From a virus: a DNA stretch of 20,822 nt. Shown piece after piece: positions 871 through 12,784 of this stretch. The DNA lies in IMG/VR virus record IMGVR_UViG_3300006924_000268, positions 1-20,822 of that record, one strand, 5' to 3'. A model generated the notes under the pieces. It was not told where the DNA came from. It did not search any database and saw nothing but the letters and a program-made list of their open reading frames with translations. Each line of letters opens with the position of its first letter. The first letter of the stretch is position 1. The translations under genes and the position numbers were made by a program.

Positions 871-926
871 ATCTATCTTAGGACTTTCATCGCTTCGCTT
901 TGAAGATGAAAGGTCCCAAGACAGAT
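871..926 (+). promoter_or_regulatory. Intergenic hairpin A, upstream of the first early gene
   Basis: ATCTATCTTAGGACTTTCATC (871-891, split here as ATCTATCTTAGGA + CTTTCATC) pairs with 905-926, with two mismatches and one bulge; the apical part can extend as CTTC/GAAG. It ends 31 bases before the ATG at 958. After it comes the A/G-rich ribosome-binding stretch CGGAAACGGAG, also seen after the other hairpins of the family. It is the most diverged member and lacks the UNCG loop. Confidence 0.6.
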
Positions 927-957
927 AAATGGGCCGAAACGGAAACGGAGCAGCGAA

Positions 958-1266
958 ATGAATGACAAAAACTTGAACGAAATAACGGATCAAATTGCTA
1001 ACGGCTTGTATGAGCTTAGTTATTTCAGTAATACAAGAAGTCATATGGATAACTGGTTTGAGTTACTAAATGTAGTAATTGAAAAACTACAAGATATGCA
1101 TGGTGAATTTGATGGATTTGATATCGAAGCCGAAGTTAATTTTGTAGGAAAAGCCACAAATGGACCTAGTTATGAATTTATTGGAGATATGTCGATTGAT
1201 GAATACGGAGTGATTACTTGTATAGATTGTTTAGAACCTATAGACGAGTGTACACACGCATCTTAA
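958..1266 (+). CDS. Small acidic protein of unknown function (102 aa)
   Basis: ATG at 958 with GGAG at 947-950. The product is acidic, AT-rich in coding sequence, has no membrane segment and ends in a Cys cluster (CIDC near residue 88, then C about 9 residues on, before THAS). The Cys pair could bind a metal or be incidental. The gene is the first of the early string and is preceded by hairpin A and followed by hairpin B. Its last codons and downstream flank (ACACACGCATCTTAATCAAA) are repeated almost exactly at the end of the gene at 1520-1996, which shows that the end-plus-spacer module was duplicated. I do not recognise the family. Confidence 0.75.
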   Translation: MNDKNLNEITDQIANGLYELSYFSNTRSHMDNWFELLNVVIEKLQDMHGEFDGFDIEAEVNFVGKATNGPSYEFIGDMSIDEYGVITCIDCLEPIDECTHAS

Positions 1267-1285
1267 TCAAAATAAATCATAAGAA

Positions 1286-1340
1286 CTCTCTAAATCTTTT
1301 TTCCATCCCTACGGTCTGTAAATGAAAAAAAGATAGAGAG
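1286..1340 (+). promoter_or_regulatory. Intergenic hairpin B with UACG tetraloop
   Basis: CTCTCTAAATCTTTTTTCCAT (1286-1306, split here as CTCTCTAAATC + TTTTTTCCAT) pairs with the arm 1322-1340 ending in AGATAGAGAG. The apex CCCTACGGTCTG contains C(UACG)G, a member of the very stable UNCG tetraloop class. It lies 19 bases after the stop at 1266 and 22 bases before the ATG at 1363, followed by GCGGAAACGGAG. Hairpins C and D share the apex word CATCCCTACGGTCTG (one change in C). Confidence 0.75.
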
Positions 1341-1362
1341 AACAGCGGAAACGGAGTGAAGC

Positions 1363-1515
1363 ATGGCAAGCAAAACAATCACAATCGATTTAACACCGAA
1401 TTGGGAAAACATCATAAGAGCTATGGAAATGTCTAAAGCAACTATGACTGCTAAACAGTGGGAAAAGAGTGCAGAAAAAAGAGTAATGGATGAATGTTTA
1501 AAGAGTAGAGGGTAA
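1363..1515 (+). CDS. Small protein, unknown function (50 aa)
   Basis: ATG at 1363 is preceded by CGGAG (1352-1356), the same ribosome-binding phrase as the genes at 958 and 2355. The product begins MASKTITIDLTPNWENII and is rich in Lys, Glu and Met, probably helical, with no membrane segment. The stop at 1513-1515 is four bases before the next ATG, so the two genes are probably translated together. No family is recognised. The strong ribosome-binding site and hairpin-led spacer are the main reasons to call it. Confidence 0.65.
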   Translation: MASKTITIDLTPNWENIIRAMEMSKATMTAKQWEKSAEKRVMDECLKSRG

Positions 1516-1519
1516 GCAA

Positions 1520-1996
1520 ATGACTAAGAATTTTGAAGATAGTTACTGGAAAAATCACCACCGAAAGCTGATACAGCTTCGAGCTGAAATGAAAAATCAC
1601 CGACTTGGTGACGAATGGACTAACAGTCCATTTGAAGATGAACTAAAAACCACCGAAGAAGTTATTGCCTATAGGCAAGAACTGAAAGAAGAAAGATTGA
1701 TTGGCGATTTCGGCAGCCTTTATGAAGTACCTAGACATGATTGTAATTATTGCAAAGGATATCTATTCCCAAATGGATATTTTATGAGTGTTATATCTTT
1801 CCATTGTTCTTATGTTAGTGCTTATGGAAATGAAGATCAGCCATATGAAATAGCTATAAGAGTAGATTCTACTGGTGATTTTGTTCATTTAGATGGTTAT
1901 GACTACCGTCATGACGATGTTCTTGGTTACCTCCCCTTAGAAGATGTCGCTGACATCTTTTACCAAACGAGAGACTTAGCTACACACACATCTTAA
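1520..1996 (+). CDS. Unknown protein with Cys/His cluster (158 aa)
   Basis: ATG at 1520, four bases after the previous stop, with the purine-rich GAGGGTAAG just upstream. The N-terminal third is charged and helical. The middle contains HDCNYC and, some 20 residues later, FHC, a possible metal-binding cluster. The C-terminal part is acidic and aromatic. The last residues and the 3' flank duplicate those of the 958-1266 gene (TACACACACATCTTAATCAA). I do not recognise the family. It is a typical phage early accessory gene by size, composition and position. Confidence 0.75.
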   Translation: MTKNFEDSYWKNHHRKLIQLRAEMKNHRLGDEWTNSPFEDELKTTEEVIAYRQELKEERLIGDFGSLYEVPRHDCNYCKGYLFPNGYFMSVISFHCSYVSAYGNEDQPYEIAIRVDSTGDFVHLDGYDYRHDDVLGYLPLEDVADIFYQTRDLATHTS

Positions 1997-2018
1997 TCAA
2001 AATAATCATTAAAGAAAA

Positions 2019-2069
2019 CTCTCTCCTTTTTCCCATCCCTTCGGTCTGTAGATGGAAAAAAGAATAGAG
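2019..2069 (+). promoter_or_regulatory. Intergenic hairpin C with UUCG tetraloop
   Basis: CTCTCTCCTTTTTCCCATC (2019-2037) pairs with 2051-2069 (GATGGAAAAAAG, then AATAGAG). The apex CCCTTCGGTCTG contains C(UUCG)G. The stem has the same polypyrimidine/polypurine plan as hairpin B. It lies 22 bases after a stop and 19 before the ATG at 2089, followed by AGCGAAAGGAAAAGC. Confidence 0.75.
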
Positions 2070-2088
2070 CAAAAGCGAAAGGAAAAGC

Positions 2089-2217
2089 ATGGAGCCAGAA
2101 ATTGACGGTTTAAACGAAATCTTCCACTGTGAAGAGAGTGGAAAGTGTGATTGCTGTGAAGCAATTTTCTTACCAACCGATTGGACTGATTCAGTCCTAG
2201 CTGAAGAAAGGATGTAA
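2089..2217 (+). CDS. Cys-rich mini-protein (42 aa)
   Basis: ATG at 2089 follows GAAAGGAAAAGC. The product contains FHCEESGKCDCCEAIF, giving His-Cys then Cys-x-Cys-Cys, a pattern that fits a small metal-binding knuckle. The rest is acidic. After the stop at 2215-2217 there are only about 70 bases to hairpin D, with no second gene that I can support. I do not recognise the family. The start is supported by its place directly after hairpin C, as for its neighbours. Confidence 0.6.
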   Translation: MEPEIDGLNEIFHCEESGKCDCCEAIFLPTDWTDSVLAEERM

Positions 2218-2286
2218 AGATGGATTAGGAATTGAAAATCTGAAAGACGTGGACACACTCTAAATCAATCAAAAAGAATATCTTAT

Positions 2287-2327
2287 CAATCTCCCTCATC
2301 CCTACGGTCTGAGAATGAGGAAGATTG
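2287..2327 (+). promoter_or_regulatory. Intergenic hairpin D with UACG tetraloop
   Basis: CAATCTCCCTCAT (2287-2299) pairs with ATGAGGAAGATTG (2315-2327) with a single mismatch, and the pairing can extend outward through TATCTT / AAGATA. The apex CCCTACGGTCTG is identical to that of hairpin B and contains C(UACG)G. The ATG at 2355 follows after GTGAAACGGAGAAACGAA. Confidence 0.75.
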
Positions 2328-2354
2328 AAAGATAAAGTGAAACGGAGAAACGAA

Positions 2355-2615
2355 ATGGCAATGACAAGAAAGCACTATCAAGCAATCGCTGAAGCACTTG
2401 GAGAAGTTCATGCTATTAAACTTGCTTTTAGCTATAACTCCAATCCAAAATTAGCTCTTGAAGGAGCTATTACTGGAATAGCTGACAGATTGGGTTCCAT
2501 ATTTGAAGCAGACAATCCCAATTTTGATTGGGATCGCTTTAAATCAGCTATCGAAAAAGAGTTTGATGAAACTATGGAAAGACTTCCGTACAACAGCAGC
2601 AACTGGCAGTTTTAA
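2355..2615 (+). CDS. Small phage early protein, conserved type, unknown function (86 aa)
   Basis: The ATG at 2355 is chosen over a TTG at 2325 because CGGAG at 2343-2347 is well placed and because the TTG lies inside hairpin D. The product starts MAMTRKHYQAIAEALGEV and has NPNFDWDRFKSAIEKEF near its end. This layout (TRKHY..IA at the N-terminus, a NPNFDxxRF stretch at the C-terminus) recalls a widespread group of small phage proteins of unknown function; the resemblance is from memory and was not searched. Probably all-helical and cytoplasmic. Confidence 0.75.
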   Translation: MAMTRKHYQAIAEALGEVHAIKLAFSYNSNPKLALEGAITGIADRLGSIFEADNPNFDWDRFKSAIEKEFDETMERLPYNSSNWQF

Positions 2616-2643
2616 AAAAAAAGCAATCTTGAAAGGATTAAAT

Positions 2644-2964
2644 ATGACCTACCAAACATACAGAATTTACACTCAAGACTTAGAGAATTACGACACTGAT
2701 TGTGTCGTAAATGAAGGGATTTGGAAGGCTAAAGGTGGAGATACATACAAAGTTACAGTGCCAGAGGGTTTTAGGGCTAGAAATAATGCTATGGCTCTTG
2801 TTTCACAAGAACTAATTATCAACGGCGGCTTTGTTCAATACATTTCTCTGGTAGAAAGATGTGACAATGATTGGATTCCATCTAATGACTGTAATGCTGA
2901 CCCTTGTAGAGATGAATATTGTGTAGAAGATGATAAAAGATTGAAAATTATTTCAATCAAATAG
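2644..2964 (+). CDS. Unknown protein with C-terminal four-Cys cluster (106 aa)
   Basis: The ATG at 2644 has the extended site GAAAGGATT at 2631-2639, the recurring phage ribosome-binding phrase. An in-frame upstream start at 2503 would lie deep inside the previous gene and is rejected. The product has a beta-rich N-terminal half and a C-terminal cluster of Cys73, Cys83, Cys88 and Cys93 that may bind zinc. I do not recognise the family. It is separated from the previous stop by 28 bases, without a hairpin, so the two probably share a transcript segment. Confidence 0.75.
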   Translation: MTYQTYRIYTQDLENYDTDCVVNEGIWKAKGGDTYKVTVPEGFRARNNAMALVSQELIINGGFVQYISLVERCDNDWIPSNDCNADPCRDEYCVEDDKRLKIISIK

Positions 2965-2966
2965 AT

Positions 2967-3020
2967 TTGTTGAACCACTACGATCCATAACTTCGGTTGT
3001 GAATCGTGTTGGCTTTACAA
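2967..3020 (+). promoter_or_regulatory. Intergenic hairpin E with UUCG tetraloop
   Basis: The arms 2967-2991 and 2996-3020 pair over most of 25 positions (with several mismatches and two G-U pairs) around C(UUCG)G at 2991-2996. Its stem sequence is unrelated to hairpins B-D, so the shape and tetraloop are conserved while the sequence is not. The stop of the previous gene is 2 bases upstream; the GTG at 3055 is 34 bases downstream. Confidence 0.7.
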
Positions 3021-3054
3021 ACGTTAAAGTCAGGCAAAGAAAGGATGCGGTTAC

Positions 3055-3591
3055 GTGACTAACCCATTAAACAACTCATGGTATTCAACTGGAACCAACA
3101 AGTATTCCATACTGGATGAAGTAGCTACAGCTACAGATACGCGTGAGTCAGTAGTTCAAAAAGAGGTCGAGACAATCTTGGCTAGTAGTGAGTGTAAACA
3201 CTCAGTTATGGAAGTTATGGTTGATATGAGCAGCGTTTGGATGTTCGCGTCAACTAAAGCTGACGATCTAACCTCATCTCTTAGAGAGATAGAAGGATCT
3301 ATAGACTCTATAGAAGATGTAATTGGTGGTGGTGATTATGATGTTGATTGGTATGACAGTGGTGATGAAGTAAAAATTACTGTTAGTAAATATGATGGTA
3401 GTGATGACGCAGAAGCATATATCAATGACGCAAGAACTGAAATTAATGATTTGATTGGTGAAATTCACCAACAATTAAGCGATATTCGTCAAGAAGATAT
3501 TGATCCAGAAAACATCTACCACCTATGCACAGAGTGTAGAGCTACATTCAATCACGAAGAAGTTAAGTATGTAAAGGAGGCTCAGGCATGA
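3055..3591 (+). CDS. Acidic unknown protein with C-terminal CxxC (178 aa)
   Basis: GTG start at 3055, supported by GAAAGGATG at 3039-3047; the nearer ATG at 3044 is out of frame and stops after five codons. The product is strongly acidic. It has predicted helices around residues 67-90 and 121-146, an Asp/Gly-rich linker near 90-115 and a C-terminal LCTECRATFNH (Cys158, Cys161, His167) that resembles half of a zinc site. The stop overlaps the ATG of the next mini-gene (ATGA). No family is recognised. Confidence 0.75.
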   Translation: MTNPLNNSWYSTGTNKYSILDEVATATDTRESVVQKEVETILASSECKHSVMEVMVDMSSVWMFASTKADDLTSSLREIEGSIDSIEDVIGGGDYDVDWYDSGDEVKITVSKYDGSDDAEAYINDARTEINDLIGEIHQQLSDIRQEDIDPENIYHLCTECRATFNHEEVKYVKEAQA

Positions 3592-3674
3592 TTGCACTTA
3601 TATTATTACCAATAATTGCCCTATCTCTGATAGGGCTGGTCAGTGAGTTCATCCGAAACGATTTGGAGCAGTAA
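3588..3674 (+). CDS. 28-aa single-pass membrane microprotein
   Basis: ATGA overlap with the preceding gene and a near-perfect Shine-Dalgarno AAAGGAGG at 3573-3580, the strongest in the window. The product starts MIALILLPIIALSLIGLV and ends with the charged tail SEFIRNDLEQ, so one membrane helix fills residues 2-18. A chance frame would not be expected to combine this site, the coupling and a clean hydrophobic helix. The role is unknown; small phage membrane peptides can act on host membrane proteins, but nothing here identifies a target. Confidence 0.7.
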   Translation: MIALILLPIIALSLIGLVSEFIRNDLEQ

Positions 3675-3676
3675 CT

Positions 3677-3731
3677 ACTCTCTAACTCTTTATCCCTGAA
3701 CGAAGTGAAGGGAATAAAGAGTAAAGAGAGT
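3677..3731 (+). promoter_or_regulatory. Intergenic hairpin F
   Basis: ACTCTCTAACTCTTTATCCCT (3677-3697, split here as ACTCTCTAAC + TCTTTATCCCT) pairs with 3709-3731 (AGGGAATAAAGAG then TAAAGAGAGT) with two small bulges. The loop is about 11 bases and not UNCG. It repeats the polypyrimidine/polypurine stem plan of B and C. A further 79 bases without a gene separate it from the ATG at 3811. Confidence 0.7.
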
Positions 3732-3810
3732 AAGAGAAAGGAAAGCCGATAAGCTAACGACCCTAGCGTAAACAAAAAACTAAACACAATTTTTGAAAGG
3801 ATTGTAAACA

Positions 3811-4218
3811 ATGGCAAACAGAGTAGATTTTAGTACAGAGACCGTAGGAAAAATGTTGAAGGCAGCAGCGAAAGCAGCTCACAAAAACATAAATGCCCAC
3901 ACACCTATGAACAGACCAAAGATGGTTCGTTCAGTGTGGTTCAACAGAGGCTATGCAGCAGGTGTAGCCGCAGCTACAGCTGAAGCTGAGAAAAAGTTTC
4001 GAGTTGGAGACAAGGAGCTTGTAGCTCCTGATGGTGAACCGATTGTGGTTCAGCTTACAGACTCAATGGAGTCTGTTGAGCCAGAGATTGATGTCGTTGA
4101 TGTCGTTGATACAACGGCAGATGAGGGAGCCATCATAGATGAGGATGACCAGAAGAGACTGTTAGATATCCTAGCAGCTTTTGGCAAAGCCAACGGCCTT
4201 GACCCCATCAAGGCATAA
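3811..4218 (+). CDS. Unknown protein, basic N-terminus and acidic C-terminus (135 aa)
   Basis: ATG at 3811 with GAAAGGATT at 3795-3803. Residues 1-60 are basic and alanine-rich (AAAKAAHKN, RPKMVRSVWFNRGYAAG). A short strand region with DGEPIVVQL follows, then an acidic repeat DVVDVVDTTADEGAIIDEDD and a C-terminal helix. The charge split suggests a nucleic-acid-binding or protein-binding adaptor, but this is only a guess. It directly precedes the DUF932 gene, with hairpin G between them. No family is recognised. Confidence 0.75.
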   Translation: MANRVDFSTETVGKMLKAAAKAAHKNINAHTPMNRPKMVRSVWFNRGYAAGVAAATAEAEKKFRVGDKELVAPDGEPIVVQLTDSMESVEPEIDVVDVVDTTADEGAIIDEDDQKRLLDILAAFGKANGLDPIKA

Positions 4219-4225
4219 CAGGGAC

Positions 4226-4267
4226 TTAAGCGTAAGTGTGTCATGCGAATGGCATACTTGCGCTTAA
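4226..4267 (+). promoter_or_regulatory. Intergenic hairpin G
   Basis: TTAAGCGTAAGTGTG (4226-4240) pairs along its whole length with CATACTTGCGCTTAA (4253-4267), counting two G-U pairs. The G-U pairs mean the structure is better on the plus-strand RNA than on the complement. It lies between the stop at 4218 and the ATG at 4307, which carries GAAAGGATT at 4294-4302. Confidence 0.75.
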
Positions 4268-4306
4268 CTTTCCGACAGTGTATAGTTAATCTTGAAAGGA
4301 TTACAA

Positions 4307-5377
4307 ATGACAACAGCACAAACACATGTAATGACAGTCCCACAAATCACCGATAGGCTAACAGCGTTAGCTGATTTTCAGCAGAGTTGTGTCGATATGG
4401 TAGTACCATCTCATTCAATCACCGCTCAGGTGGGGCAAATTGGAGAGGCTTATGAGCCTCTTATCAATGTAAATCTAGGCATCGGAGATGCCTCGCAGTT
4501 CTTGGTTCACATACAGGACCATGCACATAATCAAATCTTCCAAACTGGTACTGATATCGGTCTCCACTATGGGAGAAAGCTGCTTACAGCACCAGACTTA
4601 TGGGCTACCAATGTGAATCATTGGTTAAGACAGAAAGACGAAGACACTTCGTATCTCTTAAGAACCAGAAAAGATTTCTTACGATCTTTTCTGAGTTCTC
4701 GATACAAGATCGTAAACAATTACGATGTAGCGTTAACGACGCTACAAAAAGCGACTACAGTAGGAGCTTTTCCACACCGATTTGATGTATCTGATACTCA
4801 CATGAGGCTCACATACTTAATGCCAAATCGAACCGTTGACTTGAATGACGGGGACACACACACATTCGGATTCAGAGTAAGCAACTCTGAGGTAGGCATG
4901 GGTGCTGTAGATGTGAAGCCATTCTTGTTTCGTTGGGTTTGTACCAATGGTTTAATCATGGGTACTAAGGAAGTTAAACAGGGTGCTATGCACAAAGTAC
5001 ATAGAGGCTCCGACTTACCGTTAGGTCAGTTGTCTAGTCGTACAATCCTAAAGCAAGCAGAAGTAATTCTCAGCGAAGCTGAAGATGCCATTGAAGGTTG
5101 CCTTAGTGATGAGATGTTTAACACATGGAAGCGACAGCTTGAGGCTGCTAATGAAACAGCTTTAGCTGACGAGCCAGTCAAAATTCTAAAAAGAACTAAG
5201 TTCTTTACGGAAGCTGAGTCTACCAACATCTTGTATGAGTTAGCACAGGCGCAGCAAACAGTATTCGGTATGGTGCAGTCGATGACAGCTACAGCCCGTA
5301 ACATGCATAGCGACAGGCGGCATGAGGTTGAGACTTTCGCTGGAAAGTATCTCAACGAGTTAGTGCCAGTTCGATAA
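4307..5377 (+). CDS. DUF932 family phage/plasmid-like protein (356 aa)
   Basis: The ATG at 4307 has GAAAGGATT at 4294-4302; an upstream in-frame TTG lies inside that site and is rejected. The protein matches the DUF932 pattern: FLSSRYKIVNNYDV (about residues 128-141), FRVSNSEVG (189-197), FLFRWVCTNGLI (206-217) and HRGS (232-235). DUF932 proteins are common in phages and conjugative plasmids and usually lie in early regions, often near replication genes. Their biochemical role is not established. Length is within the usual range and the C-terminal third is helical. The gene is monocistronic in appearance, flanked by hairpins G and H. Confidence 0.85.
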   Translation: MTTAQTHVMTVPQITDRLTALADFQQSCVDMVVPSHSITAQVGQIGEAYEPLINVNLGIGDASQFLVHIQDHAHNQIFQTGTDIGLHYGRKLLTAPDLWATNVNHWLRQKDEDTSYLLRTRKDFLRSFLSSRYKIVNNYDVALTTLQKATTVGAFPHRFDVSDTHMRLTYLMPNRTVDLNDGDTHTFGFRVSNSEVGMGAVDVKPFLFRWVCTNGLIMGTKEVKQGAMHKVHRGSDLPLGQLSSRTILKQAEVILSEAEDAIEGCLSDEMFNTWKRQLEAANETALADEPVKILKRTKFFTEAESTNILYELAQAQQTVFGMVQSMTATARNMHSDRRHEVETFAGKYLNELVPVR

Positions 5378-5380
5378 ACC

Positions 5381-5435
5381 AACTACTACTCTCTCACCCC
5401 TCGACCGAAGGGAGAGGGGTAGAGAGAGAGTAGTT
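5381..5435 (+). promoter_or_regulatory. Intergenic hairpin H
   Basis: The arms 5381-5402 (AACTACTACTCTCTC then ACCCCTC) and 5414-5435 (GAGGGGTAGAGAG then AGAGTAGTT) pair with few mismatches, giving one of the longest stems in the window. It starts 3 bases after the DUF932 stop. The flanks ACCA / TGGT can extend it. There is no T-tract, so it does not look like a normal terminator. Another 99 bases without a gene follow before the ATG at 5535. Confidence 0.75.
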
Positions 5436-5534
5436 GAGAGCTGGTAAAGGGGCTGAAGCAGCGCAGTTGTATGCCAACGAGCACCGTGTTTCAGTCTCTC
5501 TACCAACACTCAACTGTTGGAGAAAGGATTGCTA

Positions 5535-5708
5535 ATGCAATTAGCAGGGAGATGGGACTGTGAAGAATGCGGTACGCCATACGATGGGAATCAAGACCCC
5601 GTGTGTACGTGCGATGACATCACTGACCCAGATCTAAAGTCGCTGTTAAGCGAGTGGTATGAGAATGCAGATGAAGAATGGTATCCAGAAGGGAGTGCGA
5701 GTGGATAA
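5535..5708 (+). CDS. Zinc-ribbon-like small protein (57 aa)
   Basis: ATG at 5535 with GAAAGGATT at 5522-5530. WDCEECGTPYDGNQDPVCTC gives CxxC (Cys9, Cys12) and CxC (Cys24, Cys26), a plausible four-Cys zinc site. The rest is acidic and Trp/Tyr-rich. The last codons overlap the GTG start of the next gene. First gene of the compact operon that leads to the ATPase. The function is unknown; small zinc-ribbon proteins of this kind are common phage early products. Confidence 0.7.
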   Translation: MQLAGRWDCEECGTPYDGNQDPVCTCDDITDPDLKSLLSEWYENADEEWYPEGSASG

Positions 5709-6177
5709 AACAAATCCGATATTCACTGACGATGATACGCATACGTCAGATGATGAGGTAGCAGAATACATATGTATAGGAGGCGAGTCTTGGGGTGTAG
5801 GTCATACACCTAAGCAAGCTATAGATGCTGCGAAAAAAGCAGGGCTAGATAGAAAGTCTGACGTGTGGGCTGTATGGGAAAGCCTTATATCTCACGGGAG
5901 GATTAGGTTGATAGCCGAAACCAAATCTATAACAGTAGTTCCACCTATAGATATGGATTGGGATGAGTCTTTGTTTTGGGAATCTAAGTATAAACCTGCG
6001 CGATTGCGAATGATTGCGTGTAGTTCTAAGTTTTCTGTTCGGATAATACGAGTACGTACTAACCGAATTGAACGAGAACTCCGCAGGAAAATGCAGCTAC
6101 AAGGGATAGATATAGATCCAACACAAGCCATAGAAGCAGTTGAAGAACTCTTGAAGGGAGACGCGAATGGAGATTAG
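5701..6177 (+). CDS. Unknown protein (158 aa)
   Basis: GTG at 5701 is preferred: AAGGGAG lies about 6 bases upstream and the start overlaps the previous stop (GTGGATAA). The frame is open further upstream, but an ATG at 5659 would overlap the previous gene by 50 bases without a good site. N-terminal acidic stretch, then SWGVGHTPKQAIDAAKKAG (about residues 30-48), a beta-rich middle and a basic helical segment RVRTNRIERELRRKMQLQ near the end. No family is recognised. The end overlaps the next ATG by 11 bases. Confidence 0.7.
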   Translation: MDKTNPIFTDDDTHTSDDEVAEYICIGGESWGVGHTPKQAIDAAKKAGLDRKSDVWAVWESLISHGRIRLIAETKSITVVPPIDMDWDESLFWESKYKPARLRMIACSSKFSVRIIRVRTNRIERELRRKMQLQGIDIDPTQAIEAVEELLKGDANGD

Positions 6178-6421
6178 TGTGAACTCTACAACGCAGAAAC
6201 GTGTGACATACGACACGAATCATGTGTTGAAAGGTGAGAAGGAAAGCTCTGATAGGTATCTGTCAGTGCATATCAACTCACCCACTGTAGCTGAACTACT
6301 AGATATCTTACGTGTAGCAGCGGAAGAAGTAGGCGGTGACGCAGTGGTATGGAGTCAAATTTCAGACTCAAATAGGTGGTATATAACCTGCCGTGAGAGA
6401 ACGGAGTTTGATGATGCCTAG
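6167..6421 (+). CDS. Unknown small protein (84 aa)
   Basis: ATG at 6167 with AAGGGAG (6154-6160) inside the end of the previous gene. The product has a beta-rich N-terminus and an amphipathic helix ELLDILRVAAEEVG followed by WYITCRER. No recognised motif. Both ends overlap neighbours (11 and 8 bases), which supports translation as one coupled operon. Confidence 0.65.
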   Translation: MEISVNSTTQKRVTYDTNHVLKGEKESSDRYLSVHINSPTVAELLDILRVAAEEVGGDAVVWSQISDSNRWYITCRERTEFDDA

Positions 6422-6830
6422 ACAATTACATAAATTAAATCTAGACATAGTGCTACCTGTAGAAATGGAAGTTGACGATATCGTAGAACTGTTTGAGCAG
6501 AGCTTCGATGTATGGTTAGCTGAGACATTTAACGGAGCAGTAGTGGGTGTAGATTTACACATGCCAGTAGCAGGACATGGCTGGAGAGAACGGTATCGTA
6601 CAAATGTACGCTTAATGCTCACAGCACATCTTGATTCATGGCAAAAAACTCTGGAGAACTATAACGCAGGAAGCATGACACTAGGTAACACAGCTAAGTT
6701 ATGTGGAGTCTCTCGGACTGCGGTATACCACTGGATACAAAGTAATAAATTGACAGGGCATAAGAACATAGAAGGCGAGTGGATGATTGACACTCAAGAA
6801 CTAGATGCACTGGCGAAGGAAGGATCGTAG
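6414..6830 (+). CDS. Protein with C-terminal excisionase-like helix-turn-helix (138 aa)
   Basis: The ATG at 6414 is 7 bases from GGAG (6403-6406); the adjacent ATG at 6411 is the alternative. Residues 1-85 are of unknown type and acidic. Residues 88-135 (MTLGNTAKLCGVSRTAVYHW, then a short wing ending GEWMIDTQELDALA) match the layout of MerR/excisionase-type DNA-binding domains: helix, turn, recognition helix, then a strand that tests for a following residue pair. It is likely a phage DNA-binding regulator or an accessory factor of replication. It abuts the next gene with TAG|ATG. Confidence 0.7.
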   Translation: MPRQLHKLNLDIVLPVEMEVDDIVELFEQSFDVWLAETFNGAVVGVDLHMPVAGHGWRERYRTNVRLMLTAHLDSWQKTLENYNAGSMTLGNTAKLCGVSRTAVYHWIQSNKLTGHKNIEGEWMIDTQELDALAKEGS

Positions 6831-7259
6831 ATGGCTGAGAAAATTGAGCCGAAAGTAAACACAATAACCTTTGGGATTGAGGGTATTCCATACTCACAAA
6901 TCACACTGGATGCGAGTGACCCTGATGGTGGCATAGCTACTGCCTTGTCATGGCACATTGCATACACTGATGCGTTTGATGAAATTCAAGCAGCTCAGAC
7001 AGGAGCGCAAGAGATTGTAGCCCAACAAGATGCACAAGCTGTGGAACCACAGGCCGAAGGCGGTCACATGGTACAGGAAGCGGTGGCTCTTGGTGGTGAG
7101 GAACGATGTCCCGATCACCCAGACCGTGACCCGAAGCCTAGCCAATACGGTGGTACATTCTGTACGTTCCCATTTAATCCACCACAAAAGGTTGAGTACC
7201 CTGACGGAACCGTTAAGGTAGTTAAGTTTTGTACGTGGAAAAGTCAGGTGAAGTCATAA
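6831..7259 (+). CDS. Unknown protein with putative zinc-binding C-terminus (142 aa)
   Basis: ATG at 6831 directly follows the previous TAG, with AAGGAAGGAT before it. Residues 1-50 form a beta-rich start. Residues 55-90 are Gln/Ala/Glu-rich and probably disordered. The C-terminal part has Cys93, His96, Cys111 and Cys134 in the order CPDH...GTFCTFP...FCTW, which fits a small zinc module. The stop overlaps the next ATG as TAATG. No family is recognised, but the C-terminal pattern recalls small zinc modules in actinophage replication operons; this is from memory. Confidence 0.7.
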   Translation: MAEKIEPKVNTITFGIEGIPYSQITLDASDPDGGIATALSWHIAYTDAFDEIQAAQTGAQEIVAQQDAQAVEPQAEGGHMVQEAVALGGEERCPDHPDRDPKPSQYGGTFCTFPFNPPQKVEYPDGTVKVVKFCTWKSQVKS

Positions 7260-7483
7260 TGAGAACGCAACGTGAGATTATTCTCAAGGTTGTGTCTCAG
7301 TCTGCTGAGCCTGTCCCATCATGGAATCTACAGAAGGTAGATACATTTTGGGGTTGGCTTGGTACGTCTGGTGACCGAGTAGCTCGGTTAATGGCAGAGA
7401 ATGGTGAGCTTGAACGAGTACGGAAAGGTAAATATGTGTACTACAGTGTGCCACAACCATCCAAACAACAGCGATTGTTGTAA
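7259..7483 (+). CDS. Winged-helix-like small protein (74 aa)
   Basis: ATG at 7259 overlaps the previous TAA (TAATG), with AGGTGAAG upstream. Residues 1-15 form a helix (MRTQREIILKVVSQS). Residues 37-68 read GDRVARLMAENGELERVRKG then KYVYYSV: a recognition-like helix followed by a two-strand wing, as in winged-helix DNA-binding domains. Likely a DNA-binding protein; the target is unknown. It overlaps the next gene by 50 bases in another frame. Confidence 0.65.
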   Translation: MRTQREIILKVVSQSAEPVPSWNLQKVDTFWGWLGTSGDRVARLMAENGELERVRKGKYVYYSVPQPSKQQRLL

Positions 7484-7733
7484 GCCTGTAGAATCACCGT
7501 TACAGAAAGGGTTGCGCGAACGCAGAGAACGCATCGCTCATCTACCTGAGTTAGCTAGGTATGAGTACGTATGTGATGGTTGCGCTCGGTTTGTCTGGAC
7601 TGATGGGTCTAGTCAATTCCTTTCCGAAACAGATACACCGTGTAGATGCATGGGTACAGTACAGGAGGACATACCTGTGCCTACTGACGAACCTGTGCAA
7701 GAAAGTGAGAGTACTGAATGGTGGAGAAAATAG
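7434..7733 (+). CDS. Cys-rich zinc-finger-like protein (99 aa)
   Basis: ATG at 7434 with GAAAGG (7423-7428). It starts 50 bases inside the previous gene, a longer overlap than elsewhere; a later start would lose the N-terminal Cys cluster but keep the main zinc pattern. Cys47-x2-Cys50 (YVCDGC) and Cys70-x-Cys72 (CRC) could bind one zinc. The N-terminus adds Cys2, Cys6, Cys15 and Cys16. The C-terminus is acidic (EPVQESESTEWW). It overlaps the ATPase gene by 16 bases. Function unknown. Confidence 0.6.
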   Translation: MCTTVCHNHPNNSDCCKPVESPLQKGLRERRERIAHLPELARYEYVCDGCARFVWTDGSSQFLSETDTPCRCMGTVQEDIPVPTDEPVQESESTEWWRK

Positions 7734-9040
7734 AGTACGAGCGAAACCCTGACGGGTTATCGTACACGGAAGAACTTGAGGGAGGCGAAGCCTTACTGAA
7801 GTTCAAGGCCGAGAAGATTAGACTGGAAAAGACAGGCGCACATGCTGAGGTACAGATACTTATAAATGATGTACTCTTAGCAGCCGACCAGTTTAACCTG
7901 AGTCGTCTAGACCCTAGACAACGCATGGCTAACAAGGCACACAAGCAACTGAATACAGGCAAGACTGAGCTGATAAGCGCAGCCGCACTGAACCATAGGT
8001 TTGATGAGTTTTGTATCGGATTGTGGGATGCGAATAGCGCATCCACATTAGCAAGTTGGGTGAACATTGACGGTGAACTCTCTTTACCAGAGTACATAGT
8101 CAATCCATTCCTGTTAGCTAATGGTGCAGGAACCATCTTGTATGGGGAACCTGCGAAGGGCAAGTCATGGTTCACCATGATGCTTGCTCAAAGCATTCAA
8201 CACAACATCGAGTATGTATTCGATGTACGTGGTAAACGTAATGTCATCTTTGTGAATCTTGAACGAGATGAAGATGGTGTCATACGTAGGATGCGAGCGG
8301 TGAACAGGGCATTGGGACTTGATTACAATCAAGAACCACTGATGATTAACCGCAAGGGCTGGACATTAGAACGTGTAAAGAACAGCATCGAGAAAAGTAT
8401 TGAGCACCACAATGCTGAGCTAGTGATACTAGATAGTATCAGTCGTGCAGGATTGGGACTCACTAACGATGAAGATGCGAATGCAATCATGGATCACTTG
8501 AACTCGTTAGGCGTGTCATGGCTAGGGATAGCACATACACCTAAGAGTAATACCGAGACTGTGTTTGGTTCTCAAATGTTCTTAGCTAGTGCTGACGTAG
8601 TATGTCAACTGACAACTGAGGAACAATACCAAAACAATAAACTTGGATTGGCATTGCAAATCACAAAAGCAAATGACATCCCGAAGGTGAAGCTACCTAT
8701 CTGGGCTATGGAGTTTGATGACTACGGTATACATACCATGCGTGAAGCATACGACGGTGAGTTCTTGGAGCTGACTGAGTTTGCTACATCACGCAAAGAA
8801 AAAGTCATAGAGTTCCTACGTGAGAACGGACCATCAACAGTGAAAGATATTTCAGCGTCGATGTCTATTCATAGGAGCACTGCAAGTGGCTTGCTCTCAG
8901 GTAACCCTGAGTTTGTAGCACTTGAACGTGATGGCAAGGAACAGATATACGGACTGACCAGTTTGCATCAATCATCAGCGCCAGCGCCTATTGATTATGA
9001 CAAAGGGTATGAACGTAGTGTGCAGCAAAGTAGCTTCTAA
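7718..9040 (+). CDS. RepA-like AAA ATPase / putative replicative helicase with C-terminal winged helix (440 aa)
   Basis: Walker A is GEPAKGKS (residues 143-150) and Walker B is LVILDS (235-240), followed by a sensor-like IAHTPK (271-276). This is the layout of the AAA_25/RepA group of RecA-fold hexameric ATPases that act as replicative helicases or recombination ATPases in plasmids and phages. Residues 359-413 (EKVIEFLRENGPSTVKDISA through the ALERDGKEQIYGL wing) form a winged-helix domain that would bind DNA. ATG at 7718 overlaps the previous gene by 16 bases; the ribosome-binding site is weak, so translational coupling is likely. It is the best candidate for the phage replication motor; no DNA polymerase or primase is visible in the window. 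Confidence 0.85.
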   Translation: MVEKIEYERNPDGLSYTEELEGGEALLKFKAEKIRLEKTGAHAEVQILINDVLLAADQFNLSRLDPRQRMANKAHKQLNTGKTELISAAALNHRFDEFCIGLWDANSASTLASWVNIDGELSLPEYIVNPFLLANGAGTILYGEPAKGKSWFTMMLAQSIQHNIEYVFDVRGKRNVIFVNLERDEDGVIRRMRAVNRALGLDYNQEPLMINRKGWTLERVKNSIEKSIEHHNAELVILDSISRAGLGLTNDEDANAIMDHLNSLGVSWLGIAHTPKSNTETVFGSQMFLASADVVCQLTTEEQYQNNKLGLALQITKANDIPKVKLPIWAMEFDDYGIHTMREAYDGEFLELTEFATSRKEKVIEFLRENGPSTVKDISASMSIHRSTASGLLSGNPEFVALERDGKEQIYGLTSLHQSSAPAPIDYDKGYERSVQQSSF

Positions 9041-9164
9041 GTGTTGAGTCGAACTCGATACGACTACTATCGAGTATAATAGTACCAACACTTACGGTCA
9101 AGCGTAGTGTATTGACTGTGTGAGTTTCGCTTAAGGCTCAACTCAACAGTAAATAGAGGTGTAT
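9041..9164 (+). promoter_or_regulatory. Structured leader with mutually exclusive hairpins before the HNH gene
   Basis: ACTCGATA (9053-9060) and TATCGAGT (9068-9075) form a perfect 8-bp stem, closed further out by GTGTTG (9041-9046) with CAACAC (9086-9091). The same 5' arm can instead pair as TGTTGAGT (9042-9049) with ACTCAACA (9141-9148), just before the ribosome-binding site of the next gene. A third option pairs ACACTTACG (9088-9096) with CGTAGTGT (9103-9110). TATAAT at 9075-9080 lacks a good -35. Confidence 0.5.
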
Positions 9165-9473
9165 ATGAAAAGGTCTCCGTTAAAAAGGACAGGTAAACTT
9201 CGGTCTCGGTCTAAGAAAACTGAGGTGAAGTACAGGGAACGAAGAAAAATAGTTTCTGAGTTACTCAGTACCCGTACTAAATGTGAAGCTGACATAAAAG
9301 GAGTGTGCAGTAACAGGAGCGTGGATGTGCATGAGGTAAAAACACGGGGGCGTGGAGGCAGCATACTAGATGTAGATAATCTACGTTGTGTCTGTAGACC
9401 ATGCCATACGTGGATTACTGAGCATCCAAAGGAATCACATGAGTTAGGTCTGGTAGTACATGCATGGGAGTAA
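9165..9473 (+). CDS. HNH endonuclease (102 aa)
   Basis: ATG at 9165 with AGAGGTG just upstream (an in-frame GTG lies 6 bases earlier inside that site). The basic N-terminus (MKRSPLKRTGKLRSRSKK) is followed by Cys40 and Cys48, the HE pair His56-Glu57, GGS, Asn72 and CVCRPCH (Cys77, Cys80, His81), then HP at 87-88. This is the beta-beta-alpha-metal HNH fold: a zinc-stabilised domain in which His/Asn/His ligate a catalytic metal. In phages such small HNH proteins can act in packaging, recombination or as free homing nucleases. Here it lies in the recombination block, far from any visible terminase. The stop overlaps an upstream ATG of the next gene. Confidence 0.85.
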   Translation: MKRSPLKRTGKLRSRSKKTEVKYRERRKIVSELLSTRTKCEADIKGVCSNRSVDVHEVKTRGRGGSILDVDNLRCVCRPCHTWITEHPKESHELGLVVHAWE

Positions 9474-9475
9474 GT

Positions 9476-9892
9476 ATGGGATACCACAAGAATAAAGAAG
9501 TCGATAAAGAATCTGAGTTTGTGCCAAAGCGCAAAAAGATTAATCGGAATAACCGAAGGAGAGGAAAGGAGTATGAGCGTAGAGCCGCAGCCATCGTGGG
9601 AGGGAAACGAAACCTCGACAAATCCCGACCGCACACAGATGTCGAAACGGTGGATACAGTTTACGAGATTAAGTCAACTCAACAATCAGTACCCAACTGG
9701 TTGGAGGGGGCATACAAGCAGCTCGCACTGGCGGCAAAAGAATCGGGGAAGGTAGCAGGGGGAGTCATCAAGGTCTGGACTAGCGGAGCTAAGTCTCGGT
9801 TCTTTTTGATTACAGAAATCACAGATACACAGAAAGGATTATGTGATGGCAACGAACGGAGTGGGTCTGGAGACCCTGAGATCCCTAGTTAG
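9476..9892 (+). CDS. PD-(D/E)XK nuclease, Holliday-junction-resolvase-like (138 aa)
   Basis: ATG at 9476 is chosen because GGAG (9467-9470) is 5 bases away; an in-frame ATG at 9464 has no comparable site. A basic N-terminus is followed by RRGKEYERRAAAIVGGKR (Glu32/Glu34), Asp55 (PHTDVET) and the ExK motif YEIKS (Glu64, Lys66), then WLEGAYKQLALAA and the strand GGVIKVW. This E-D-ExK order is that of resolvase-type PD-(D/E)XK enzymes. It probably cleaves branched recombination or replication intermediates. The frame ends 47 bases inside the next gene. Confidence 0.75.
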   Translation: MGYHKNKEVDKESEFVPKRKKINRNNRRRGKEYERRAAAIVGGKRNLDKSRPHTDVETVDTVYEIKSTQQSVPNWLEGAYKQLALAAKESGKVAGGVIKVWTSGAKSRFFLITEITDTQKGLCDGNERSGSGDPEIPS

Positions 9893-10370
9893 AGGGATAC
9901 TGAATGAGCGAGATGAGGTGTATGCACCTGACCTTGCTAAAGAATTAATGGCTACTCATGGTGATACAGACTGGTGGACATCTCTTAAAGATGATGTGTT
10001 CGACAATGCTGTATACAGCGAAGTAGTAAAAGTGATAGGCGCACAACGTAGAGCAGGACAGAAAACTGTGTACGGTGACAGGGCTATCACTGCAAACAAG
10101 ATGGTAGACCGCATAGAAAAGATGCGCACCTCTCGTATGGGTGGCATGGAATGGATTGGGGATAGGTACAAACGCATTAGTGAAATGACTAAGGCCGATG
10201 TCTATTCAGCAGCAGAGTTACGACGAGAACGTGGTGACCTACACAGTAGGTATGCAATGTTCTGGGAAGCTCTCGCAAGGAAGATGGATGATTCACAAGT
10301 AGTATCTGATATTGCTAGTGAAGAAGACCTCGACGCACTAAACGAATTAGTCACAGGAAAGGAAGACTAA
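9846..10370 (+). CDS. Unknown phage protein (174 aa)
   Basis: ATG at 9846 with GAAAGGATT at 9832-9840; a GTG three bases earlier is the alternative. The N-terminal half is helical and acidic with WWTSLKDDV. Residues near 95-150 read EWIGDRYKRISEMTKADVYS followed by AAELRRERGDLHSRYAMFWEALA. A motif of this type (a G/D-R-x-x-R-x-x-x-M-T stretch followed by a charged helix) recurs, as far as I recall, in actinophage proteins of unknown function. No catalytic motif is seen. It overlaps the resolvase-like gene by 47 bases and is 4 bases from the next ATG, so it is coupled on both sides. Confidence 0.75.
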   Translation: MATNGVGLETLRSLVRGILNERDEVYAPDLAKELMATHGDTDWWTSLKDDVFDNAVYSEVVKVIGAQRRAGQKTVYGDRAITANKMVDRIEKMRTSRMGGMEWIGDRYKRISEMTKADVYSAAELRRERGDLHSRYAMFWEALARKMDDSQVVSDIASEEDLDALNELVTGKED

Positions 10371-10374
10371 AACA

Positions 10375-11214
10375 ATGGCAGGTATATTCGCGAAGAAGGC
10401 AAACATTTGGAACCACTACAAGGTAACTATTTCATTACGTGAAAAGCTCATGGGTGGTGTACCAAAAGACCCGAAGATTATTGAGGGTTGGTTGAAAACA
10501 AAAATGGGAACTTCCAATGAGGAAGAAACCAAACAACAGCTGTATAACACATTGCTTGAGCTAGGCTATGACCTAGCTAAGCGTGAGGAATACGAAGATG
10601 AGAAGGGATTAGAGCGACTCATTGACATGCAGAACGATGCATCAAGTGACCTCGCTGCCGTCAAGAATACAAACGGGTTCAAGTTTGATGAGCGTGGTTT
10701 GTACATAGAAGGGCGACAACTGAAAGCTGCACTCAAAGAATCTACAAACATTCTATGGGGTGGTGTACGTACTGGTCCTACGAAGAAAGGATTCAAGAGC
10801 TTTATCTCAGAACGCCTGATGGTCATAGAGGACAAGGTGTATCTAGGGATACAAGAACCTGATGGTATCGAGACTGTGATAGGTCACGTTACTGGACCAC
10901 AAGGTCCACGTAGTACATTAGGCTACTCGGAGTATGCGTATCGACCAACCTTAACATTCCACATTAAAGAGTTGAAAGTACTTCAGACTGGACAAAAGCT
11001 AAACGATAAGGGTGGACAACCTGCGTTAACACTTGACCAATACGGAGAACTGCTGACTTGTATGGAAGAACAGGGCATCGGAGCTATGCGCTCTATGCAA
11101 CATGGTCGCTTTGATACGATGGCACTTGAGCCAGTAAGCATAGACGATGTACCAGAGACATCTGGTATCGTTGCCGAAGCAGAGAAGGTGGTGCTCGAAG
11201 CAGCTAAGTCCTAA
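10375..11214 (+). CDS. Putative RAMP/Cas7-like fold phage protein (279 aa)
   Basis: ATG at 10375 follows GGAAAGGAAG. Two segments recall RAMP-superfamily proteins: LYIEGRQLKAALKEST (109-124) aligns with the IPGSSLKGALR-type motif of Cas7/Csm3/Cmr4 proteins, and QGIGAMRSMQHGRF (233-246) with their C-terminal GxGA.RS.GYGR glycine-rich loop. The N-terminus (YKVTISLREKLMGGVPKDPK) recalls phage proteins of unknown function that start with a strand and a P-x-D/N-P segment. No Cas operon or CRISPR array is near, so it is not an ordinary CRISPR effector. It may bind RNA or single-stranded DNA within the replication/recombination block. The fold call rests on motif reading only. Confidence 0.5.
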   Translation: MAGIFAKKANIWNHYKVTISLREKLMGGVPKDPKIIEGWLKTKMGTSNEEETKQQLYNTLLELGYDLAKREEYEDEKGLERLIDMQNDASSDLAAVKNTNGFKFDERGLYIEGRQLKAALKESTNILWGGVRTGPTKKGFKSFISERLMVIEDKVYLGIQEPDGIETVIGHVTGPQGPRSTLGYSEYAYRPTLTFHIKELKVLQTGQKLNDKGGQPALTLDQYGELLTCMEEQGIGAMRSMQHGRFDTMALEPVSIDDVPETSGIVAEAEKVVLEAAKS

Positions 11215-11220
11215 CATAAT

Positions 11221-11245
11221 GGGGAGGGGGCATACCCCCCTCTCC
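11221..11245 (+). terminator. GC-rich hairpin after the RAMP-like gene
   Basis: GGGGAGGGGG (11221-11230), loop CATA, and CCCCCCTCTCC (11235-11245) form a strong stem 7 bases after the stop at 11214. No T-tract follows on the plus strand, so it may be a transcript-end stabiliser or a weak terminator rather than a classic intrinsic terminator. It also marks the start of the G-poor region. Confidence 0.5.
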
Positions 11246-11700
11246 ATACCGACAAAACACTACATAACTTGACTGCGCAGAACTACACATAACGACAAAA
11301 CGCTACCCGCCGTCACTCAACTAACCGACAGAACGCAACGCGCCGACATTCATCTAAACTCTACACGCCGACGGAACGAGACCGCACCACACACTCAACG
11401 GCACATTACTGGTCGACAGGACGGAACCAGACAGCACGAAACGGTATTCCCCTAATCACCACCTACCGACTATTCGGTACGCGTTCTCACGGGTCAGAAC
11501 ATATTGACGAAACCAAACAAAACGGAACTAGCCTCTCCGACTATCCGACCCCTGCCCTCACGGAACATTACTCATCGACATTACTCACCGCTTCCTGTCG
11601 GATCATTTCGACACTCCAATGCGAGACACGTCCTGTCCATACCATACCTACCGACCTTACACTCCCCATCGCCTCCTTCCATCCCGACAATACAGGATAA
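11246..11700. repeat. G-poor non-coding block with iteron-like CGAC repeats
   Basis: No frame is convincingly coding here. Six 16-base units of the form nCGACRRAACnC start at 11248, 11291, 11324, 11367, 11412 and 11503 (for example ACCGACAAAACACTAC, AACGACAAAACGCTAC, ACCGACAGAACGCAAC). Their start-to-start distances are 43, 33, 43, 45 and 91, close to whole helical turns for most. Seven looser CGAC units follow or intervene (11342, 11465, 11536, 11574, 11607, 11650, 11683). A hand count of 11501-11700 gives 26 G and 75 C. This could be an origin with iterons, a cluster of repressor-binding sites of the stoperator kind, or a non-coding RNA. Confidence 0.55.
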
Positions 11701-11724
11701 AATATGTACAGAAAGGATATACAT

Positions 11725-12606
11725 ATGAAGGTAACAAACAGGCTGAATTTACCACAGCCAATAGTAGAAGTACTAGCGTCAGATAACTACTCAAAGGGTA
11801 GTGCTGACTTTAGTGCAACAGAACTCATAGATTCACCTCGTGTGAAGCAGCTTACAAAGCGACACTATGAGGACATCACAGTAGACTGTGCTGATTTGCT
11901 CTATCAGTTTGATGGCAAGGCAGTGCATTCATTACTGGAACAAGCCGAAGTCTCAGAAGACGTAGGCTTGATTGAGAAACGCCTTGAAGTACAGGTGGGT
12001 ACGTACACTATCTCAGGGGCTATCGACTACTACGATGTGAAGCGCGGAGTCATACAAGACTACAAGCGTGTGTCCACATGGGAAGTAGTCATGGGTATCA
12101 AGGAAGAACGAGAGCAGCAACTCAACATCTATGCTCACCTAGCTAGAGAGAATGGTTGGGCAGTTAATGGGCTAGAGATTGTATATCTGTTCCGTGACTG
12201 GTCTGAAGCCAGAGCTACTCGTGAGAAAGATTACCCACAGGACAGGGCGCAGCGTGTAGACATACCACTGTGGTCAGCATCAAAAGCTCAGGAGTATTTA
12301 GAATGGCGTGTCAATCTACATGCTCAAGCATCTGAAGAATCTGATACCAATCTACCTCTATGCCTACCACATGAGAGATGGGAAGAACCCACTACCTATG
12401 CAGTAATGAAACAAGGACGCAAGAGTGCAGTACGCGCGACAGATGAGAAGGGGGATAAGTTTCTCTCTCAGGAAGCAGCTACTACATGGATGAACTTGAA
12501 TGTAAAAACTCGTTCAGACCATCATGTAGAGACTCGCATAGGTGAGCCACGCAGATGTCTCAAGTACTGTAACGTAGCTTCGTTCTGTAATCAATGGAGT
12601 GATTGA
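11725..12606 (+). CDS. Cas4/RecB-like PD-(D/E)XK nuclease with Fe-S-type Cys cluster (293 aa)
   Basis: ATG at 11725 has GAAAGGATA at 11711-11719; an in-frame ATG at 11704 would place the ribosome-binding site inside the gene and is rejected. Motifs in order: His68 (FDGKAVHSLLEQA), Asp101 (SGAIDYYD), Asp112-x-Lys114 (VIQDYK), Gln132 (QQLNIYA). These are the H-D-DxK-Q signature of RecB/Cas4-type exonucleases. Cys213, Cys278, Cys282 and Cys288 (RRCLKYCNVASFC) match the four-Cys iron-sulphur cluster of Cas4/AddB-type enzymes. It probably resects DNA ends for phage recombination. It is the last plus-strand gene and is preceded by the CGAC repeat block. Confidence 0.85.
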   Translation: MKVTNRLNLPQPIVEVLASDNYSKGSADFSATELIDSPRVKQLTKRHYEDITVDCADLLYQFDGKAVHSLLEQAEVSEDVGLIEKRLEVQVGTYTISGAIDYYDVKRGVIQDYKRVSTWEVVMGIKEEREQQLNIYAHLARENGWAVNGLEIVYLFRDWSEARATREKDYPQDRAQRVDIPLWSASKAQEYLEWRVNLHAQASEESDTNLPLCLPHERWEEPTTYAVMKQGRKSAVRATDEKGDKFLSQEAATTWMNLNVKTRSDHHVETRIGEPRRCLKYCNVASFCNQWSD

Positions 12607-12705: not shown

Positions 12706-12733
12706 AACAACTAGTTCTAATATAGCAGGTTTT

Positions 12734-12774
12734 TAGTGGAGGGGGGAATGGGTGGAGACCAACCCCCTCCACTA
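12734..12774. terminator. Long GC-rich hairpin between convergent units
   Basis: TAGTGGAGGGGG (12734-12745) and CCCCCTCCACTA (12763-12774) are exact complements around a 17-base loop. It lies between the ends of the two convergent transcription units, where a two-way terminator is expected. Neither strand has a T-tract directly after the stem, so termination may depend on other factors. Confidence 0.5.
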
Positions 12775-12784
12775 AGCACTGAAG

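Follow-up and report, generated by a model that had tools for sequence, protein, structure and literature searches.

The window analysed here, the whole stretch of 20,822 bases taken from the uncultivated phage record IMGVR_UViG_3300006924_000268, contains eight long hairpins (A-H) in gaps between its early genes, and what a preliminary description of this DNA had presented as a single family comprises at least two classes. Hairpins A-D, which fold better on the minus strand, lie in four copies of one gene-start cassette of roughly 90-110 nucleotides (nt), spanning 870-2334, and E-H differ from them and begin 1-8 nt after the stop codon of the upstream gene. The reading that we favour, with about half of our confidence, is that A-D act as one-way leftward intrinsic terminators in a swap cassette, and E-H as intercistronic hairpins that process RNA or protect its 3' end.

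Hairpins in the early region

A long hairpin is present in all eight gaps, as described previously, with extents that are sometimes larger than first given, e.g. D at 2279-2334 and H at 5380-5436. The stems contain 16-25 Watson-Crick pairs and are unlike in sequence while their shape is maintained, and most hairpins are placed ahead of a ribosome-binding site; both features had been noted before. In a strand-neutral scan the window yields 10 inverted repeats with scores of at least 28, six of them among the eight hairpins, where a shuffled window yields 0.5 on average. Each hairpin was shuffled 300 times, and no shuffle was as stable as the native on its better strand (z from -4 to -8); when whole gaps are shuffled, those of B and C are merely mildly unusual. 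No Rfam family was found at the gathering score.

Small rightward genes occupy 958-12606, among them a gene with DUF932 (4307-5377), and to the right of 12606 there are leftward genes, which PHROG or their position marks as holin-, endolysin- and tail-like. Megablast with the window gave no match among annotated phages, and protein searches found few relatives in IMG/VR and none in genome contigs. The relatives are L004/L005 (99.7% DNA identity), L127, on the same contig as L006 (about 86-90%), L021/L142 of record G004 (89-99%), and L131-L135, which show 69-87% identity in one exonuclease protein.

Cassettes A-D as gene-swap seams

Each cassette shows, in this order, the left motif T(C/T)A(A/G)TCAAAA, a hairpin of 16-23 pairs, the right motif GAAACGGAG (in A, B and D) and a start codon; in cassette C, GCGAAAGGAAAAGC stands between hairpin and start codon in place of the right motif. 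Cassette A has its left motif TCAGTCAAAA at 857-866, identified by the left-motif scan, hairpin A at 870-927, whose minus-strand tail UUGUUUUG lies at plus coordinates 862-869, and the right motif GGAAACGGAG at 941-950, which adjoins the start codon at 958. Cassette B has TTAATCAAAA at 1263-1272, hairpin B at 1286-1340, with the apex CAGACCGUAGGGAUG on the minus strand, and GGAAACGGAG at 1347-1356, before the ATG at 1363. Cassette C has TTAATCAAAA at 1993-2002, supported by the motif scan and by comparison with L021, and hairpin C at 2018-2070, with the minus tail UUUUCUUU. Cassette D has TCAATCAAAA at 2265-2274, found by the left-motif scan, hairpin D at 2279-2334, with the minus tail UUCUUUUU, and GAAACGGAG at 2339-2347, before the ATG at 2355. 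All left and right motifs are given on the plus strand and the four hairpins are assigned to the minus strand. Five of the seven window matches to the left motif sit 13-26 nt ahead of hairpins A-E; E was dropped as a member of the cassette group, since the match ahead of it is not retained in G004. With a covariance model of A-D, hits at E below 1e-11 are confined to the window and L021, and no more distant homologues appeared.

In the window, A is followed by gene 958, B by genes 1363 and 1520, C by gene 2089 and D by gene 2355. In L021, genes 1363 and 1520 stand after A, a new gene after B, gene 2089 and a new gene after C, and another new gene after D. Cassette sequence is thus near identical between the two while the adjoining genes differ: cassette B has different genes on both sides in L021, A and D differ at the right and C at the left. 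Homology between window and L021 stops at the left motif or at GAAACGGAG; the right motifs of A and D are such breakpoints, and the two motifs of B form the left and right edges of a block common to L021. Because the same cassettes stand beside different genes in G004, they are gene-swap seams.

In this respect A-D resemble the promoter-early stem-loop (PeSL) cassettes of T4-like phages, described by Comeau, Arbiol and Krisch in 2014: these are reportedly small stem-loop cassettes between small early open reading frames, one and the same cassette bordering different genes in close relatives. They differ in three ways. Most cassettes here lack a sigma-70 promoter: a scan confined to sites of the sigma-70 type gave eight promoter-like sites against 23 in shuffles, and only one rightward match lies just ahead of a hairpin (2250-2279, 9/12, before D). 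The terminator-like strand is the antisense and not the sense strand, on which A-D score from -39 to -65, and this phage group is unrelated to T4.

Strand bias and terminator scores of A-D

All four hairpins are more stable on the minus than on the plus strand: -29.1 versus -20.5 kcal/mol for A, -20.4 versus -15.2 kcal/mol for B, -23.0 versus -12.6 kcal/mol for C and -27.9 versus -20.1 kcal/mol for D, and z is also lower on the minus strand in every case. Because A.C on one strand reads as G-U on its complement, the type of wobble tells which strand has been selected. Read on the plus strand, the mismatches of A-D are nine A.C and one G-U; since the A.C mismatches are G-U pairs on the minus strand, and the energies agree, A-D appear to be selected there. 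The consensus fold of the four paralogues likewise favours the minus strand (-18.9 versus -12.0), where 11 of 19 pairs show changes on both sides.

With a d-score of the d'Aubenton-Carafa type, which combines hairpin energy and T-tail and calls a site at d>0, A scores +8.4 on minus and -41 on plus, B -9.2 and -61, C +13.0 and -65, and D +13.8 and -39. Hairpins A, C and D therefore have on the minus strand the stable hairpin, the U-rich tail and the positive score of bacterial intrinsic terminators; they differ from these in their long, AT-rich stems, in a conserved apex and in facing against the direction of the genes. The preliminary description held that the hairpins lack T-tracts and are not simple terminators. 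The first point is right for the plus strand, and so, for A-D, is the second; the description overlooked the minus-strand behaviour of the first four, which carry U-rich tails there. In the early region 11 antisense sites reach d>0, whereas 25 shuffles give 1.2 such sites on average and never more than three; there is a single sense site. When 11 blocks of the phage group are taken together, antisense sites number 24 versus 6.75 expected and sense sites two versus 2.5 expected, but nearly half of this antisense count comes from the window and the shuffles ignore codon structure, so a wider trend across the group is suggestive only.

It is rather unlikely that all eight hairpins share one function in the rightward mRNA, as RNase III sites or stabilisers between early cistrons like those of phage T7, the minus bias of A-D being accidental. 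All of them do lie in rightward early gaps beside ribosome-binding sites, as the T7 sites do, their stem length would suit such a role, and E-H show wobble and covariation on the plus strand. However, the nine A.C mismatches against one G-U on that strand, the weaker plus-strand fold of all four of A-D and the restriction of their U-rich tails to the minus strand argue against it, as does the absence here of the core with an asymmetric internal loop that the T7 sites share.

Hairpins E-H

Hairpins E-H are assigned to the plus strand. Hairpin E (2966-3022) starts 1 nt past the upstream stop codon and shows a cUUCGg loop (UUCG at 2992-2995). Hairpin F (3676-3732), also 1 nt past the upstream stop, has the apex GA-AC-GAA-GU-GA and a counterpart at 387-445 of L127, where a DUF7249 gene that is absent from the window directly follows it. 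Hairpin G (4226-4267) has a GCGA loop, three G-U pairs and no A.C pair on the plus strand, a d-score of 5.4 on that strand, and an energy of -26.9 on plus versus -12.0 on minus. Hairpin H (5380-5436) has the apex GA-CC-GAA-GG-GA and a counterpart at 2391-2449 of L127; its gap contains a second plus-strand hairpin at 5440-5507, found in the same place in L127 (2450-2523). The G-U pairs noted earlier in E and G are confirmed. Over E-H and their relatives, read on the plus strand, there are about 23 G-U against four A.C pairs, a count in which some positions are common to orthologues and a few near-apex pairs are included.

Covariation in related phages, which the preliminary description had named as the finding on which its proposal depended, occurs in all four. 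In E of G004 (L142) several pairs are altered on both sides and the cUUCGg loop is retained, in G of L127 one C-G is replaced by U-A, and in F and H of L127 the outer arms are retained and the inner arms are unrelated yet paired. Chimeras of F and H that join the left arm of one phage to the right arm of the other are 7-14 kcal/mol weaker than the natives on the plus strand. L132 and L134 show long hairpins of unrelated sequence in their early gaps, also near stop codons. Since inner arms are replaced and still paired, and unrelated hairpins occur in L132 and L134, length and pairing are kept and sequence is not. The earlier proposal of structured RNA between early genes thus holds for E-H; A-D instead favour the minus strand.

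The early RNase III sites of T7 (NC_001604) also lie between early genes, with the stop of the preceding gene close by and the next start a few tens of nt further on. E, F and H resemble them as early-mRNA hairpins between cistrons that span about two helical turns, and G is shorter (19 pairs). The T7 sites share a sequence core, whereas the stems here are longer, close to perfect and without a common sequence. By analogy with T7, the simplest reading of E-H would be RNase III-like processing or protection of 3' ends.

Apex motif, loops and loop pairing

The apex GA-NC-GNA-GN-GA occurs in six of the eight hairpins, on the minus strand in A-D (in A the first GA is AA) and on the plus strand in F and H, and elsewhere in the window there is just one further match. 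Its 2-bp stem shows compensating changes. In IMG/VR the apex motif CATCCCTNCGGTCTGNNNATG is found in only three contigs of this phage group, with three copies in each. The idea that all eight hairpins share one loop motif was rejected, as E and G do not have it and F and H of L127 have lost it; because the latter keep the stem, the apex is not required in the L127 hairpins. The opposite orientation of the apex in A-D and in F and H could have come about through recombination between hairpin arms.

That orientation could be accommodated by a reading in which the hairpins have no part to play as RNA and act in the DNA itself, as cruciforms or as seams of recombination, template switching (quasipalindrome correction) keeping their arms matched. 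This we consider improbable. The cassette edges are indeed breakpoints of gene content, and the arms of F and H are swapped wholesale and in step, as template switching can do, but no strand preference of wobble would be predicted, and yet E, G and their relatives lean to the plus strand and A-D to the minus strand; nor would U-tails and adjacency to stop codons be expected. Very improbable is a set of protein-binding or nut-like RNA sites, in which a phage or host protein would read the apex (tandem GA and triloop) and control elongation or translation: the frequency of the apex, its compensating stem and a boxA-like string, CTCTTAACA, at 842-850, 19 nt ahead of hairpin A, speak for it, but that string is a single unsupported match, F and H of L127 keep their stem after losing the apex, and no N-like protein was recognised.

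The preliminary description gave four of the hairpins UNCG apices. This stands for E, where the C(UNCG)G loop caps a continuous helix both in the window and in the G004 copy, and fails on pairing for the other three. UNCG caps for B-D were rejected, as a C.U mismatch comes directly after the putative closing C-G pair and the helix is not continuous, and in hairpin A a compensatory swap is consistent with a triloop on a 2-bp stem rather than UNCG. Hairpins with CATCCCTTCGGTCTGTGAAGGG occur in three GC-rich, unrelated phages, at L107:4191-4212, L116:1775-1796 and L063:3354-3375, directly ahead of ribosome-binding sites and with different outer stems, and further gaps of these phages also contain hairpins. 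A link to the present group was set aside as coincidence or convergence, because CATCCCTTCGGTCTGTGAAGGG folds differently there.

The plus-strand loop of C is complementary to the H loop over 11 of 11 nt (-22.3 kcal/mol), and those of B and D over 10 of 11 nt (-17.8 kcal/mol); it is very improbable that the opposite apex orientation is functional, with the B, C and D loops kissing H, some 3 kb further along one early transcript, to form a long-range RNA switch, or linking separate transcripts.

Other structured elements in the window

The top-scoring inverted repeat of the window lies at 683-740, in the gap ahead of the first early gene; it is AT-rich, with TATA-rich arms of about 26 pairs, is identical at 12099-12156 of L021, and is possibly an operator or origin element. 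A strong rightward intrinsic terminator (298-317, d 60.5) follows the leftmost gene, and L021 shows a terminator of different sequence in its place (11713-11736). The gap of about 490 nt at 11214-11704 contains repeated CCGAC(A/G)(A/G)AAC-like units and is possibly an origin or control region; it opens with a hairpin at 11220-11246, with a leftward terminator score of 17, which is conserved at 8243-8269 of L127. Another leftward terminator-like site lies within gene 10375-11214 (10505-10531, d 13.0; in L127 7528-7554, d 15.9). A strong palindrome is found within the DUF932 gene (4648-4715; in L127 1654-1725), and a long GC-rich hairpin in the gap between convergent genes (12726-12782), near whose place L127, L131, L132 and L134 show hairpins of other sequence.

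Proposed mechanism and significance

If A-D are one-way terminators and E-H intercistronic hairpins, rightward early transcription would pass through A-D, and leftward antisense RNA would fold the hairpin, meet the U-rich tail and stop. The repeated flanks of the cassettes would supply homology for early-gene swaps, recombination between flanks being the probable mechanism of transfer. E-H would form in the rightward early mRNA immediately past the stop codon and serve for RNase III-like processing or as an exonuclease block between cistrons, duplex length outweighing sequence.

The hairpins, their strand bias and U-tails, the covariation and the transfer of cassettes are observed; termination, processing and recombination at the flanks are deduced from them. 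Several points weigh against this proposal. The terminator model presupposes leftward RNA, B is below the terminator threshold, and 4.3% of gap positions attain the tail value of B. The plus strand is A-rich (A fraction 0.325), which makes U-rich tails commoner on minus than on plus and accounts in part for the tails observed. A-D are nearly invariant in G004, so that their covariation is between paralogues only, and they were grouped after inspection of the data; the wobble counts are small. The putative action of RNase III on E-H is proposed from their shape, and paired changes can arise as well when replication switches template from one palindrome arm to the other.

Inverted repeats are also known just before the translation starts of many non-structural genes of Cluster K mycobacteriophages, SAS and ESAS, whose half-sites are conserved in sequence and for which the authors found little support for mRNA hairpins (PMC3203893). 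The position just ahead of translation starts is shared with the hairpins described here, whose arms in contrast vary and compensate; the 13-bp SAS GGGATAGGAGCCC gave four matches with three mismatches in the window, at chance level, none of them at these starts. Neither PeSL cassettes, which are alike in swapping, nor T7 RNase III sites, alike to E-H, nor ESAS, alike in position, match in all tested features.

A hairpin reported as lacking a T-tract needs a check of either strand. As to how expression survives the fast swapping of small host-takeover genes in the early regions of phages, a cassette that combines a start-site module with a one-way antisense barrier would, if the proposal is true, be a simple answer, seen here outside the T4 group.

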